Virus record (IMG/VR): IMGVR_UViG_3300035698_008566
Coordinates: 1 to 26,647 of that record
Reading direction: 5' to 3' (one strand)
From: a virus
DNA length: 26,647 nucleotides
Below are positions 7,900 through 12,902 of the stretch, one piece after another. The notes under the pieces were generated by a model, which was not told where the DNA came from, searched no databases, and was given only the letters and a program-made list of their open reading frames with translations. Within the stretch, counting starts at the first letter, position 1. Each line of letters starts with the position of its first letter. Made by a program: the position numbers and the translations under genes.

Positions 7900-8041
7900 A
7901 AACATCAAATTTGAGGACTGGATGGCTGGGCAGAAATGGGGCTTCTGGTATTATTGGTACAGCATTACATGGTACTGGCCCTGGCGGGTGCGGTACTGGC
8001 TGATGGACAGGCTGGGCAATAATGCCCACACTTCTGAGTAG
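7889..8041 (+). CDS. Trp/Tyr-rich small protein (50 aa)
   Basis: It starts at ATG 7889, with GGAAGG upstream, overlapping the previous gene by 11 bases. Its middle (KWGFWYYWYSITWYWPWRVRYW) is extraordinarily aromatic: eight Trp and five Tyr occur within about 25 residues. It could insert at a membrane interface or bind carbohydrate. No family is recognised. Good start signals and coupling support it as a real gene. Confidence 0.5.
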   Translation: MPVENIKFEDWMAGQKWGFWYYWYSITWYWPWRVRYWLMDRLGNNAHTSE

Positions 8042-8198
8042 GTGTAGACGTTTTGTAACACACGATGACTAGAGCCAGAAAGGGGCGAGCGATGGAAGAG
8101 GGATGGAATGTGCCACTATAGCAGAGCCTGGGTGGTTGGGCGAATTGGTTGCCACGTTGCCTAAGCAAGTCGAACTCATCCAACGGAAGTTTTGACGT

Positions 8199-8272
8199 GG
8201 TGGCCGGAGCCAGATGGACGCGGCAGCAGACTGTGAATCTGTGTATCGCGGGTTCGAATCCCGCCGGCGGCC
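8199..8272 (+). tRNA. tRNA-His (GTG)
   Basis: The anticodon stem GCAGA/TCTGT encloses the loop CTGTGAA with anticodon GTG (8233-8235). The T arm GCGGG-TTCGAAT-CCCGC lies at 8248-8264. The acceptor stem (8200-8206 with 8265-8271) has one G-G mismatch and one G-T pair. The histidine identity pair, an extra G at -1 (8199) opposite C73 (8272), is present, which strongly supports the assignment. Position 8 is G rather than T, the D stem is short and no CCA is encoded, so some decay is possible. Confidence 0.75.
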
Positions 8273-8318
8273 CTAGTAGGTGTGCTCTGTCCTTACGAGA
8301 GGGATGCTCTATCCATCC

Positions 8319-8389
8319 GACCGCATGGTGTAATGGTAGCAAACTAGACTGTCGATCTGGAGGCGCGGGTTCGATTCCCGCTGTGGTCG
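8319..8389 (+). tRNA. tRNA-Asp (GTC)
   Basis: The acceptor stem GACCGCA pairs with TGTGGTC (one G-T), and the discriminator is G, as in tRNA-Asp. The anticodon stem CTAGA/TCTGG encloses CTGTCGA with anticodon GTC (8351-8353). The T arm GCGGG-TTCGATT-CCCGC lies at 8365-8381. No CCA is encoded. This gene looks intact and sits 46 bases after tRNA-His. Confidence 0.88.
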
Positions 8390-8392
8390 CTG

Positions 8393-8636
8393 TGTCTGAT
8401 CCGGTAACATCGCCGGGGTAGGGTGCCTTGGGGTCGGTGATGACGGCCCCTATTACAACCTGACAGCGTGTAGAAGTCGCAATGCGTCTTCTGGAAGGCC
8501 AATAGTCGGGAGCCGGTGGGGGTGGGCGAGCCGGCACGCGCTGTCCAGTCTCCTTCGGGAGAACTCTCTCCTTTCTAAGCCCGGCTCGGGGGGCGCCTCG
8601 GGCCGGGTGAAAGGGGGAGGGGAAAGGTGGAGGAGG
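8393..8636 (+). other. Hairpin-rich untranslated region after the tRNAs
   Basis: No gene is seen. Stems occur at about 8401-8416, 8430-8450, 8472-8492 (AGAAG/CTTCT with an inner CGC/GCG) and 8579-8609 (CCCGGC/GCCGGG). At 8549-8571 the segment GGAGA (8558-8562) can pair either with TCTCC before it, closing a TTCG tetraloop, or with TCTCC after it, closing ACTC. These two stems exclude one another. The region ends in a purine-rich ribosome-binding site for the 8637 gene. The rest of the 8042-8636 interval, apart from the two tRNAs, shows only tRNA-like fragments. Confidence 0.5.
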
Positions 8637-8840
8637 ATGAATCCAGACGAGAGATGTCCTGAGTGCTCGGGCGAGGTGGTAGCGGTCATAACCCATGTGC
8701 GATTGCCGTGTCATGCATCGCCATTCGCAGCGATGAAGATTGCCTGTTGTTGCGATTGTGGCTGGATGACGGTCAAGGATTGGGATCGGGCGCCAATTGC
8801 CAGCGCCCTTGCATATCCGGTTGAGGGTATATGTGAATGA
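8637..8840 (+). CDS. Small zinc-ribbon protein coupled to the ParB-DpdA gene
   Basis: It starts at ATG 8637 (MNPDERCPECSGEVVAV) behind a strong purine-rich site (GGTGGAGGAGG). The 67 residues contain CPEC (7-10) and CCCDCGW (about 36-42), a typical four-cysteine zinc ribbon. The stop overlaps the start of the ParB-DpdA fusion gene by ATGA, so the two proteins are probably made together and may interact. Whether it serves base exchange or is merely adjacent is unknown. Confidence 0.65.
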   Translation: MNPDERCPECSGEVVAVITHVRLPCHASPFAAMKIACCCDCGWMTVKDWDRAPIASALAYPVEGICE

Positions 8841-10027
8841 CCAACCCGCTGACCTGGACGACCGAACGGCGCAAGCTGTCCGACTTGGTGCCGTGGCCTC
8901 GCAACCCGCGCCAAATCCGCAAAGACGAGGCAGCCCGCCTATCTGAATCACTGGACACGTTCGGCCAGGTGGATACCATCGCCATCGGGCCAAATTCAGA
9001 AGTCTACAATGGCCATCAGCGCGTTAACGTCTGGGCCGCTGAACATGGCGACGATTTCGAGGTAGAGGTCAGGGTGGCCAGCCGGGAGTTGAGCGAGAAG
9101 GAGCGGGAAAAGCTGACGGTGTTCCTGCATCGTGGGGCGGCTGGTGATTGGGATTTTGACATTCTGGCCAACGAGTTTGAGCTTGACGAGCTGTTGGAGT
9201 GGGGATTTGAGGAATCGGACTTTCAACTTGATTGGGGAGAGGACGATAATAGAGATTTGCTTGGCGTGCCAAAAGATGCTAAACCAAACCCTCGCAACTT
9301 GCCAATTGATGTGATTTACACGCTCCAGATGGCCGATTGCACTTGCTGTCTGGCAGTCCAGGCTGGCTGGAAGTATGGAATACAGAGCGCACAATACCGC
9401 CTGTGTCCGTATGTGGGTCAATTGAGTGGGCGTCACAAGGTTGAGTTTATTGATAATGATTACTTCCATTATGACCATGCAATACACCTTGCGGCAGTCC
9501 GTGACATCAGACCGGAATATACCACGGCACTCGATGTGATGACTAAAGAGCAGTGTGCCCAAGAGGGTACTTCTTGGCAATCACTGGAAAAAACTCTCGA
9601 CGAGGCCAGGGAACTAGCGGAATACGCCGAAAATGTGATTGTCATTCCAAAGTACGATTGTCTAGATCGGATACCCGCAGAGTTCATATTGGGCTATTCA
9701 GTGCCCACCTCGCACGGTGGTACTCCGCTGCCAGTTGAGGCATTCAAGGGTCGGCGCATTCATCTACTAGGAGGGAGTTGGAAGGCGCAGCTTGCTCACA
9801 TGGCGGCACTGAGTGACGATGTAGTAAGCCTGGACAATAACCAGGTTCAAAAAATCGCCCGCGAGTTCGGTAGTTATGTCACGCCAGAAGGCGAGACTCA
9901 ACAAATGCAAGGTGTTGGTTATGGTTATCTGACCAATGTGCGCTATGCGGCCCTCGCAATGTCGTTCGGCGCAATTGGTTCGAAAGTGAACGAGCTGTAC
10001 GCCGGTTCCGCAACACCCGGCGAATAA
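8837..10027 (+). CDS. ParB-like domain fused to a DpdA-like (TGT-family) base-exchange domain
   Basis: In the 396-residue protein, residues about 11-130 form a ParB/Srx-type domain (KLSDLVPWPRNPRQIRKDE, then YNGHQRVNVWAA at 57-68), as often fused to phage DNA methylases. Residues about 155-390 resemble phage DpdA proteins, homologues of tRNA-guanine transglycosylase that exchange guanine in DNA for a 7-deazaguanine. Key stretches are EFIDNDYFHYDHA (203-215), ALDVMTKEQC (231-240), VIVIPKYDC (267-275), GYSVPTSHGGTPLP (286-299), HLLGGSWKAQ (309-318) and VVSLDNNQ (329-336). Conserved Asp residues include D206, D208, D233 and D333. The start is coupled by ATGA. The following transporter and riboswitch independently support a deazaguanine role. 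The match is from memory of the families and was not computed. Confidence 0.75.
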   Translation: MTNPLTWTTERRKLSDLVPWPRNPRQIRKDEAARLSESLDTFGQVDTIAIGPNSEVYNGHQRVNVWAAEHGDDFEVEVRVASRELSEKEREKLTVFLHRGAAGDWDFDILANEFELDELLEWGFEESDFQLDWGEDDNRDLLGVPKDAKPNPRNLPIDVIYTLQMADCTCCLAVQAGWKYGIQSAQYRLCPYVGQLSGRHKVEFIDNDYFHYDHAIHLAAVRDIRPEYTTALDVMTKEQCAQEGTSWQSLEKTLDEARELAEYAENVIVIPKYDCLDRIPAEFILGYSVPTSHGGTPLPVEAFKGRRIHLLGGSWKAQLAHMAALSDDVVSLDNNQVQKIAREFGSYVTPEGETQQMQGVGYGYLTNVRYAALAMSFGAIGSKVNELYAGSATPGE

Positions 10028-10035
10028 CAAAAGCG

Positions 10036-10072
10036 GGGCGGTCGCAGTCAACCCGCCCAACAAAACAGGAGG
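10036..10072 (+). promoter_or_regulatory. preQ1-I riboswitch controlling the YhhQ-like gene
   Basis: Stem P1 is GGGCGG (10036-10041) with CCGCCC (10053-10058). The loop begins TCGCAGT (10042-10048) and ends with C10052. It is followed by the A-rich tail AACAAAACA (10059-10067) running into AGGAGG. The loop and tail are essentially those of the well-studied Thermoanaerobacter tengcongensis preQ1-I aptamer. The ligand-contacting residues have counterparts here at U10042, C10052 and A10065. The pseudoknot would pair loop cytosines (10043/10045) with G10068-G10069, part of the Shine-Dalgarno sequence. Ligand binding should therefore hide the ribosome-binding site and switch transporter translation off. 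Confidence 0.92.
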
Positions 10073-10079
10073 TCTTAAC

Positions 10080-10691
10080 ATGGCACGTCTAATCATTGTG
10101 GTGGCGGCCTACATTGCCGCTCAAATGCTGGCTGATATTGGAAGTCTCAAGATTGTGGTTTTTATGGGCTTGTCGATGGATGCCGGGACATTTGTTTACC
10201 CGATCACATTCACGCTCCGCGACATGGTACATAAAACCATTGGGGCAAAGGGTGCGAGGATTCTGATTGTGACGGCAGCGGCCATCAACCTGGCAATGGG
10301 GGCATACTTCTGGTTCATTTCCCAGTTACCAGGAGATCCGATGGTGGGCGCTCAATTTGAATTTGCGGCGGTGTTGTCTCCAGTGTGGCGCATTGTGACG
10401 GCGTCCATAATTGCCGAGGTGGTGGCCGAGCTACTGGACACAGAGGCTTACAGGTTCTGGGTAAGAAGGGTCACAACTCGCTATCAGTGGGCAAGGGTAT
10501 TGGCGTCAAATGCAATCAGTGTTCCCATTGACAGCCTGCTTTTTTGTTGGGTGGCGTTTGGCGGTGTTTTGCCCAGCGCGGTGGTGTGGAGCATTGTACT
10601 GGCCAACATTATCGTAAAGGGCGCTGTAACACTGATTAGTATGCCATTGATCTACTTGATACCTGATAACAGAGTAAAGATTGTTGAATAA
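10080..10691 (+). CDS. yhhQ: YhhQ/QueT-family queuosine-precursor transporter (VUT family)
   Basis: The 203-residue protein starts at ATG 10080 with AGGAGGT upstream, inside a preQ1 riboswitch. It has about six hydrophobic spans, for example 1-20, 23-42, 58-78, 95-115, 140-165 and 170-195. The family-typical segments are VYPITFTLRDMVHK (residues 39-52), AELLDTEAYRFW (about 120-131) and SNAISVPIDSLLF (about 147-159). YhhQ proteins import 7-deazaguanine precursors such as preQ0 and preQ1 through the inner membrane. Placed directly after a DpdA-like gene, it would supply the modified base for phage DNA. It is close to the family's usual length and looks intact. Confidence 0.9.
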   Translation: MARLIIVVAAYIAAQMLADIGSLKIVVFMGLSMDAGTFVYPITFTLRDMVHKTIGAKGARILIVTAAAINLAMGAYFWFISQLPGDPMVGAQFEFAAVLSPVWRIVTASIIAEVVAELLDTEAYRFWVRRVTTRYQWARVLASNAISVPIDSLLFCWVAFGGVLPSAVVWSIVLANIIVKGAVTLISMPLIYLIPDNRVKIVE

Positions 10692-10708
10692 CCCAAATGG
10701 ATGGAATA

Positions 10709-10864
10709 ATGGCAATATTGAGGCGATTATTTGGCGGCAAGCGCTCGGGCAAGGACAAGGACGGATCGAAGATTGACCATCGCACCAAAAAGTGCGATGA
10801 GCGGCGAAAGATCAAAGTGGGTAGTCAGCGTGGAGCGTGGTTTGTTAGAGATCGCAACGCATGA
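10709..10864 (+). CDS. Small basic hypothetical protein (51 aa)
   Basis: The frame runs from ATG 10709 to TGA at 10862-10864. It starts MAILRRLFGGKRSGKDKDG and is strongly basic throughout (DHRTKKCDERRKIKVGSQR). The ribosome-binding site (GGATGGA) is modest. It occupies the gap between the transporter and the small terminase gene. No family is recognised. A 24-residue Asn/Gly-rich frame (10861-10935) overlaps its stop by ATGA and could be a further tiny coupled gene, but nothing else supports that one. Confidence 0.45.
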   Translation: MAILRRLFGGKRSGKDKDGSKIDHRTKKCDERRKIKVGSQRGAWFVRDRNA

Positions 10865-10912
10865 CCCAAAACGGCAACGGCACAAATGGCAATGGCATAC
10901 TTGGAAGCATAA

Positions 10913-11461
10913 ATGGGAACCAGGCGACGATCTAATGGAGAGCTGGCAAGGGACAGGCGGCGAATCTCTGACCTGTATCTTAAGGGCTGGATTCAGGCAG
11001 ACATCGGCGTCGAGGTCGGGCTGCACCAGTCCACCGTCAGCCGTGACATCAAGTGGTTGCAAGATGAGTGGATTGCATCGGCCCTTGTCGATTTCAACGA
11101 GGCTAGAGCCCGCGAACTGGCCCGCATTGACACCCTGGAACGTGAATACTGGGACGCCTGGCAGCGGAGCAAAGAGGACGCCGAGGTTGTTACCACCAAG
11201 GGCAAGGGCACCAAGGAGACGGCGGCATCAGTTGAAAAAACGGTACAGCGCAGGGGGCGGGTGGGGGATGCGTCTTTTTTGCGTGGCGTTGAATGGTGCA
11301 TCACCCGTCGCTGCAAGCTGATGGGGCTGGACGAACCGTCCAGATTTGAGGTAGACTGGCGAGAGGAAGCGAAAGAGGCAGGACTTGATCCCGCAGAAGT
11401 GTTTGAGCAATACGTCGCAGCGGCGGCTATGGCGCTCGACCAATCAGCTGACACAGAATGA
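10913..11461 (+). CDS. Terminase small subunit-like protein
   Basis: The 182-residue protein starts at ATG 10913 with GGAAG six bases upstream. Residues about 18-50 contain a helix-turn-helix (LYLKGWIQADIGVEVGLHQS followed by TVSRDIKWLQDEW), then a long charged helix (NEARARELARIDTLEREYWDAW) and a C-terminal region (LRGVEWCITRRCKLMGLDE). This plan is common in phage small terminase subunits, which recognise the packaging site and regulate the large subunit. Its position directly upstream of the large subunit supports the call. Confidence 0.75.
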   Translation: MGTRRRSNGELARDRRRISDLYLKGWIQADIGVEVGLHQSTVSRDIKWLQDEWIASALVDFNEARARELARIDTLEREYWDAWQRSKEDAEVVTTKGKGTKETAASVEKTVQRRGRVGDASFLRGVEWCITRRCKLMGLDEPSRFEVDWREEAKEAGLDPAEVFEQYVAAAAMALDQSADTE

Positions 11462-12902
11462 CCTGGAGGCTGAGTCATGGCAGGCAGCCAAGGACCAACT
11501 AGCCGCACCGTCTGACAAATATGCACTTTTCAAACAGAAGTACCGCAACGACCCAGCCGGCTTTGTCATTGATTGCATCTCATTCCGTGGTGATGGGCCT
11601 ACCCCGTACCAGGTAGAAATGATGGCATTGCTACCCGAAAAGAAGCGGGTTAGCGCCAGGGGGCCACACGGCCTCGGCAAGACAGCGATGGCCGCATGGA
11701 CCATTCTTTGGTTCAGCTTGACCAGGGACGGTGACGATGATTGGAAGATTCCCACGACGGCATCAGCCTGGCGGCAACTGACCAAGTACCTGTGGCCAGA
11801 GGTACGCAAGTGGGCGCGGCGCCTTCGGTGGGACATGGTGGGCCGGGAGCAATTCAGCGAACGATTGGAGCTGCTGACCCTGAGCTTGAAACTGGAAACG
11901 GGCGAAGCGTTTGCCCTGGCGTCGAATGATGTGTCAGCCATCGAGGGGGCACACGCCACGAGCCTGCTCTACATTTTCGACGAGGGCAAGGCGATCCCGC
12001 CCGACATCTGGGACGGGGCAGAGGGCGCGTTCGCATCACCAGAAACAGGCGAGGCGATGGCCCTGGCAATCTCAACGCCAGGCGAACCGGTGGGCCGGTT
12101 CTACGAGATCCACGCCAGGAAGAAGGGGTTGGAAGATTGGCACGTCCGGCACGTTTCGCTGCAGGAGGCTGTTGACGCTGGGCGCATCGGTCAGGACTGG
12201 GCCGAACAGCGGCGCCTACAGTGGGGTGAGAAGTCAGCCGTCTACCAGAACCGCGTTATGGGCGAGTTTGCCACGAGTGAGGAAGACGGGGTGATCCCGC
12301 TGGCCTGGGTAGAGGCGGCAAATCAGCGATGGCTAGAATGGCGGGACAGTGGCGAAGAGCCAGAAGGGGAACTGACATCCGTTGGGGTGGATGTGGCCGG
12401 GACCGGGGCTGATAAAACAGTATGCGCCTTGCGGTATGGAGACATTATTACAGAGCTACGCCGCACCAGCAAGGAAGACACCATGCAGACAGCGGGCCGG
12501 GTACTAGGTATCCTGACCCTCGGCGGCAAGGCAATTGTGGACGTGATCGGTATTGGCGCGGGCGTGGTGGATAGGTTGCGAGAACAGGGGCAAAAGGTAG
12601 ACGCTTTCGGCGCTGGCGAACGTACCGACAAGCGCGACCGTTCTGGTGAGTTGGGATTCGCAGACAAACGCTCTGCGGCTTGGTGGAATATGCGCGACCT
12701 GCTGGAAACAGATCCGATAGCATTGCCACCGGATGACACGCTGACCGGCGACTTGATAGCACCACATTGGACGGTGCAAAGCGGGGGAAAGATCAAGGTC
12801 GAGAAAAAGAAGGACATAAAAAAAAGAATAGGAAGGAGTACGGACGACGCTGACGCTGTGATTCAGGCGTTTTGGGATGAAGGCAACTGGTGGATTTTCT
12901 AA
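11385..12902 (+). CDS. Terminase large subunit
   Basis: This is the DNA-packaging motor and nuclease. The ATPase shows Walker A (RGPHGLGKT, residues 92-100), Walker B with catalytic Glu (LLYIFDE, 194-200) and a coupling segment (AISTPG, 229-234). The RNase H-like nuclease has acidic residues at GVDVAGTGADKT (D336), IVDVIGIG (D386) and STDDADAV (D488/D490). No ATG occurs in frame before residue 79, so initiation must use a rare start. TTG 11385, with AGAGG upstream, overlaps the small subunit by 77 bases, and TTG 11403 is an alternative. The 505-residue length is normal. Confidence 0.92.
   Translation: MIPQKCLSNTSQRRLWRSTNQLTQNDLEAESWQAAKDQLAAPSDKYALFKQKYRNDPAGFVIDCISFRGDGPTPYQVEMMALLPEKKRVSARGPHGLGKTAMAAWTILWFSLTRDGDDDWKIPTTASAWRQLTKYLWPEVRKWARRLRWDMVGREQFSERLELLTLSLKLETGEAFALASNDVSAIEGAHATSLLYIFDEGKAIPPDIWDGAEGAFASPETGEAMALAISTPGEPVGRFYEIHARKKGLEDWHVRHVSLQEAVDAGRIGQDWAEQRRLQWGEKSAVYQNRVMGEFATSEEDGVIPLAWVEAANQRWLEWRDSGEEPEGELTSVGVDVAGTGADKTVCALRYGDIITELRRTSKEDTMQTAGRVLGILTLGGKAIVDVIGIGAGVVDRLREQGQKVDAFGAGERTDKRDRSGELGFADKRSAAWWNMRDLLETDPIALPPDDTLTGDLIAPHWTVQSGGKIKVEKKKDIKKRIGRSTDDADAVIQAFWDEGNWWIF

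Follow-up and report, generated by a model that had tools for sequence, protein, structure and literature searches.

A translational preQ1-I riboswitch of type II is very probably present in front of a queuosine-precursor transporter gene of a tailed phage, where binding of preQ1 would shut transporter synthesis and the transporter would feed DNA exchange by a neighbouring ParB-DUF6610 protein. The aptamer itself was confirmed as real, beyond chance, while preQ1 as its ligand and the OFF logic are predicted by homology and DNA is the putative sink. The window (the whole stretch of DNA analysed, 26,647 bases, IMG/VR virus record IMGVR_UViG_3300035698_008566) contains terminase, portal and capsid genes, which supported a metagenomic tailed phage as the source of the contig, in agreement with the phage origin claimed in the initial annotation.

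The whole aptamer fits inside the 52-base intergenic gap between the ParB-DUF6610 gene and the transporter gene (Table 1). Every letter of the elements described earlier, namely a 6-bp stem, a loop, an A-rich tail and AGGAGG placed 7 bases before the ATG, agreed with the sequence, and the claimed overlap with the ribosome-binding site was evident, with AGGAGG forming the 3' end of the aptamer. The loop U, the specificity C and the A-rich L3 of the preQ1-I class were all present and are kept across phages. The type II definition (PMC11625349) was satisfied by AAC before CCGCCC and by a loop that opens with UC and not with UU. Judged by sequence, U10042 and C10052 are the predicted equivalents of the ligand-reading U and the specificity C of the T. 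tengcongensis (Tte) aptamer, and A10065 would be the expected ligand contact; these base assignments, which the initial annotation had proposed, were supported, the first U and the last C being kept in the phage aptamers. The tail AACAAAACA (10059–10067) lies directly 3' of P1. For the P2 pseudoknot with the Shine-Dalgarno sequence, the letters permit G10047–C10066 and C10045–G10068, too few canonical pairs for covariation, and these two are the putative P2 pairs. The spacing from C10066 to the first Shine-Dalgarno G is one base shorter than in Tte, so that the geometry of P2 may differ from that of Tte.

Table 1. Features of the riboswitch locus in the window and aptamer-bearing gene arrangements across phages
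Feature	Position or contigs	Strand	Basis or remark
ParB-like N-terminal domain fused to DUF6610	8837–10027	+	PF20314, E 2.9e-37; ParB-like PHROGs
Aptamer helix P1, 5' strand GGGCGG	10036–10041	+	Pairs with 10053–10058; phage-model match; covaries across phages
Aptamer loop TCGCAGTCAAC	10042–10052	+	U10042 first, C10052 last
Helix P1, 3' strand CCGCCC	10053–10058	+	AC immediately 5', the type II signature (definition in PMC11625349)
A-rich L3 and 3' side of P2 AACAAAACAGG	10059–10069	+	Aligned to the phage model and to the Tte aptamer
Shine-Dalgarno AGGAGG	10067–10072	+	7 bases 5' of ATG 10080; 5' part within aptamer P2
YhhQ-type queuosine-precursor transporter, 203 aa	10080–10691	+	Pfam Vut_1 (PF02592), NCBIfam TIGR00697
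Arrangement 1: ParB-DUF6610 then YhhQ	window, L003, L120, L134/L023, L104		
Arrangement 1, variant: two DUF6610 genes then YhhQ-QueF	L111, L114		
Arrangement 2: ParB-DUF6610 then QueT	L096, L098		
Arrangement 3: ParB then YhhQ-QueF-QueC-QueD-QueE-FolE	L004, L129, L130, L133		Shorter forms L131, L137, L138
Arrangement 4: QueF then YhhQ-QueC	L166		

In the Rfam covariance search proposed in the initial annotation, RF00522 (PreQ1) aligned end to end over the full model span at 10032–10074, with an E-value of 5.9e-5 for the family alone in the window (0.25 against all Rfam families), but the 25.5 bits obtained lay under the gathering score of 39 bits, a curation cut-off. Scores under the gathering score were also seen in all 62 virus records, relatives reaching up to 34.7 bits, and the aptamer is filed here as a close homologue of RF00522 under the cut-off. 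Five aptamers of other phages (L134, L166, L169, L096, and L098) were used for a phage covariance model, with the window excluded; this leave-out model matched the window at 10036–10072 with 34.7 bits (E 1.1e-7), which was the sole match up to E 10 and, together with the full-span Rfam alignment, bore out the claimed preQ1-I class. The minimum free energy gave z 0.03 against shuffles, the hairpin being too short for a stability test to inform. A chance hairpin plus an A-rich leader ahead of the ribosome-binding site would account for an Rfam score under gathering and for a minimum free energy on a par with that of shuffles; such a coincidence is extremely improbable and already contradicted by the comparative data, given the E-value of the leave-out model, the conservation and the covariation. 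No terminator-like site was found in 7900–11500, and a transcriptional (terminator) mode was rejected on this basis.

Viral contigs were searched with the transporter and with ParB-DUF6610, which yielded about 80 loci, and the aptamer before the transporter recurred in about 15 divergent phage contigs. When RF00522 was run over 62 whole virus records, 15 matches were obtained at E <= 0.01, and 14 of them stop immediately 5' of the start of YhhQ or QueT; the fifteenth (G039) was rejected as a different, unrelated hairpin that does not precede a transporter. A hand-written descriptor applied over 704 kb revealed one distinct match away from transporters, and scanning viral contigs with a DNA pattern of the aptamer core returned mostly coding noise and one useful contig (L023). 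The 15 hand-parsed phage aptamers contain 10 different P1 stems, and 74 of the 75 inner P1 cells were paired, compared to a shuffle mean of 49.3, and none of 20,000 shuffles was as high. The first-loop U and the last-loop C were present in all 15, a count that is not fully independent, as the hand parse was partly guided by the positions of these two bases. In a MAFFT alignment of all aptamers, P1 was out of register because the loop lengths differ; the aptamers were therefore aligned by hand and also with the model. The model-based alignment, which contains two weak, probably false matches, revealed compensatory change at five of the six P1 pairs and a P1 covariation score of 0.789, against 0.228 when shuffled and <=0.126 when slid. 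On these alignments, the P1 helix is kept by covariation across phages. Some phage aptamers have type I-like features, as in L174, which shows UU and UC, and the phage set is therefore not of one uniform type. No aptamer was visible in some phages that share the gene pair of the window (e.g., L097, L121, and L122), and no preQ1 match was found at the YhhQ/QueT loci of HCTV-16, phiLM21, RHph_N3_2, and phiFN37. The annotated phage collection, searched at the nucleotide level, returned no relative.

The transporter scored above the curated cut-offs of both Pfam Vut_1 (E 1.6e-35, 123.1 bits; cut-off 27.2) and the NCBIfam queuosine precursor transporter family TIGR00697 (92.6 bits; cut-off 50.95), in accordance with the function claimed for it. 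Across phages, the aptamer occurs in four arrangements. The QueT of aptamer-bearing phages (PF06177, E 2.8e-26) belongs to a family unrelated to YhhQ. An apparent transporter swap could be observed in L096 and L098, where QueT stands in the place of YhhQ behind a like aptamer and the same upstream gene. The DUF6610 tree was mostly unresolved, while a supported pair (99/90) joined the QueT phage L096 with the YhhQ phage L003, which suggests from sequence that the transporter was swapped beside a retained aptamer. Tandem DUF6610-like genes, two in each of L111 and L114, precede the aptamer and YhhQ and may point to a duplicated or heteromeric enzyme. The RF00522 and phage-model searches revealed no aptamer at DUF6610 loci with QueF-QueC(-QueE)-FolE and no nearby transporter (L101, L102, L105, and L109). 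A 32-kb sister contig is 99.99% identical to the window, and no further queuosine-pathway genes, QueF included, were found in either; the phage therefore appears to rely on precursor that is imported or made by the host.

The 80 nearest cellular YhhQ genes were 58–73% identical, many of them from Chloroflexota/Anaerolineae, and Chloroflexota might be guessed as hosts for the phage. The aptamer was found before one of these 80 genes (L198), which lies in a Chloroflexota bin; its gene order of ParB-DUF6610, aptamer, YhhQ, and terminase identifies it as a phage fragment. A search of 48 of these cellular genomes with RF00522, under stricter filters from which weak sites may escape, returned L198 and one weak match (G073). 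The latter was rejected, as it does not precede a transporter and by eye falls within tmRNA-like sequence. Since the nearest cellular YhhQ genes apart from L198 are without the aptamer, the element is tied to the phage module and not to the transporter of the hosts. These results make it quite improbable that the aptamer is a passenger, carried in by a transporter gene of bacterial origin and without regulatory function in the phage. Although bacteria are known to have preQ1-I riboswitches ahead of yhhQ/queT (PMC11625349) and the aptamer was lost or never present in some phage relatives, compensatory changes maintain P1 across divergent phages, the aptamer is retained before two unrelated transporter families, and its single occurrence among the nearest cellular genes is in a phage fragment.

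The AlphaFold2 model of ParB-DUF6610 was confident (pLDDT 87) and consisted of two domains. Fold comparison matched residues 2–123 to ParB-N (Z 14.2) and residues 148–394 to tRNA-guanine transglycosylase (TGT; Z 13.7, 232 aligned, rmsd 4.0). TGTs fill most of the list of fold matches, with other TIM barrels being near-equal (PdxJ, Z 13.5), and a PDB sequence-profile search with DUF6610 returned only ParB relatives at significant E-values, so the TGT likeness comes from the fold comparison. D206 and D333 were invariant across 23 DUF6610 homologues and may be equivalent to the catalytic Asp. On the basis of the model, ParB-DUF6610 is a plausible candidate for a DNA-guanine transglycosylase, i.e., a DNA base-exchange enzyme. 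DUF6610 homologues also sit within queuosine-pathway clusters of other viruses, and HCTV-5 gp68 (L182:7692–8807) is one such homologue within a halovirus QueF-QueC-QueD-QueE-FolE cluster. A DUF6610 homologue is also present in the haloarchaeal virus HVTV-1 as gp69 (NC_020158 33806–34765), the DNA of which carries dPreQ1 and in which DpdA had gone unrecognised (PMC6884629); gp69 may therefore be the insertion enzyme lacking there. ParB-DUF6610 could be a candidate insertion enzyme that earlier went unrecognised in dPreQ1-containing haloarchaeal viruses. A full-length homologue is encoded at 7–1248 of Mycobacterium phage Knocker (MZ150786.2), where its annotation reads ParB-like nuclease; identity is about 33%, and Knocker is an isolated phage and a tractable system for this enzyme.

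ParB-type domains have been reported as often fused with DNA methyltransferases (PMC12783734). Considering the ParB fusion and the homologue in HVTV-1 with its dPreQ1 DNA, DNA would therefore be the likelier target of the DUF6610 enzyme than tRNA. The switch and the transporter could instead serve tRNA queuosine, with DUF6610 acting on RNA, in keeping with a TGT fold that is the fold of a tRNA enzyme, a tRNA-Asp(GTC) gene at 8319–8390 and a tRNA-His(GTG)-like sequence at 8200–8272 (Rfam only, 41.8 bits; anticodon read by eye). tRNA-Asp(GTC) and tRNA-His(GTG) are among the four queuosine-modified tRNAs, and both of these sequences lie close to the queuosine-precursor transporter gene. This RNA-directed role is rather unlikely, because no tRNA gene was present in any of the remaining aptamer loci of the scan, the enzyme carries a fused ParB-like domain of a type reported as often joined to DNA methyltransferases (PMC12783734), and a DUF6610 homologue occurs in HVTV-1, which has dPreQ1 in its DNA and no recognised DpdA (PMC6884629).

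In the proposed mechanism with DNA as the sink, AGGAGG would be exposed without preQ1 and the transporter would be translated. Upon binding, C10052 would pair with preQ1 and P2 would form with the 5' part of the Shine-Dalgarno sequence, whereby transporter synthesis would drop. The transporter would bring in 7-deazaguanine precursors (preQ0/preQ1), and ParB-DUF6610 would most likely swap the imported 7-deazaguanine for guanine in phage DNA. With the switch placed on the transporter and DNA as the sink, import would run while preQ1 drains and halt at a full pool. Such feedback, with import off when preQ1 is high, is suggested by the known type II mode of T. tengcongensis, in which P2 sequesters two bases of the Shine-Dalgarno sequence and repression is only about 2-fold (PMC11625349); control in the phage could therefore be weak. 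Bacterial yhhQ and queT are under preQ1 riboswitch control (PMC11625349). The aptamer is very unlikely to read preQ0 or a phage 7-deazaguanine derivative in place of preQ1. YhhQ does move preQ0 (PMC6884629) and QueF was not found in the window or the sister contig; however, the conserved specificity C and the type II features fit preQ1-I, several relatives carry QueF, the producer of preQ1, and relatives also carry QueT, a transporter that has been described as moving preQ1 only (PMC11625349).

Phages with the aptamer probably meter their own supply of the unusual base. A wider role, for which the chances appear even, would be control of the precursor supply for the synthesis of hypermodified genomes: the switch would sense preQ1 depletion by the phage's own ParB-DUF6610 DNA transglycosylase and, solely as long as the pool is being drained by replicating DNA, open import (in sister phages, also the preQ1 pathway), as a phage-specific module absent from the hosts' own transporters. 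If true, a conserved viral preQ1 switch would mean that phages meter the supply of unusual-base precursors with RNA alone, and a DNA modification that probably counters restriction would gain a regulator open to testing.

Alignment of the window aptamer to the Tte aptamer sequence revealed a AACAAAACA-type tail common to both, whereas the window has a GC-rich P1 of 6 bp, a loop longer by one base and ACAGG instead of ACAAGG. Like the translational type II switch of Tte, the window aptamer has a single U opening the loop and AC before the P1 3' strand (features in PMC11625349), with the Shine-Dalgarno sequence in P2 and a transporter gene downstream; unlike it, the window aptamer is viral and adjoins a ParB-DUF6610 gene. 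The type III preQ1-I switch of E. coli controls the yhhQ transporter by hiding the Shine-Dalgarno sequence (PMC11625349), as is predicted here, but it has a UU motif and a pyrimidine-rich loop where the window has type II features, and it is not viral. Riboswitches have been called rare in phages (PMC9004378), and no phage preQ1 riboswitch was found in the open full-text literature, the scope of the search. The word "phage" is absent from the account of preQ1 riboswitches in PMC11625349, and the paper on phage Seurat mentions preQ1 and reports no riboswitch. The glutamine riboswitch of OM43 phage Melnitz and its relatives is likewise a metabolite riboswitch class on a phage (PMC9004378) but differs in class, ligand and regulated gene. 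The viruses with 7-deazaguanine DNA modification, namely the DpdA phages 9g, Dp-1, and CAjan as well as HVTV-1, similarly carry queuosine-pathway genes, sometimes with YhhQ/QueT (PMC6884629), and the Dp-1 genome contains QueT and a DUF165 gene without a preQ1 riboswitch match. In contrast to these viruses, for which no riboswitch is reported (PMC6884629), the enzyme here is a ParB-DUF6610 fusion. The RNA is an ordinary member of preQ1-I type II, and what appears undescribed in the open literature is its location and what the riboswitch serves.
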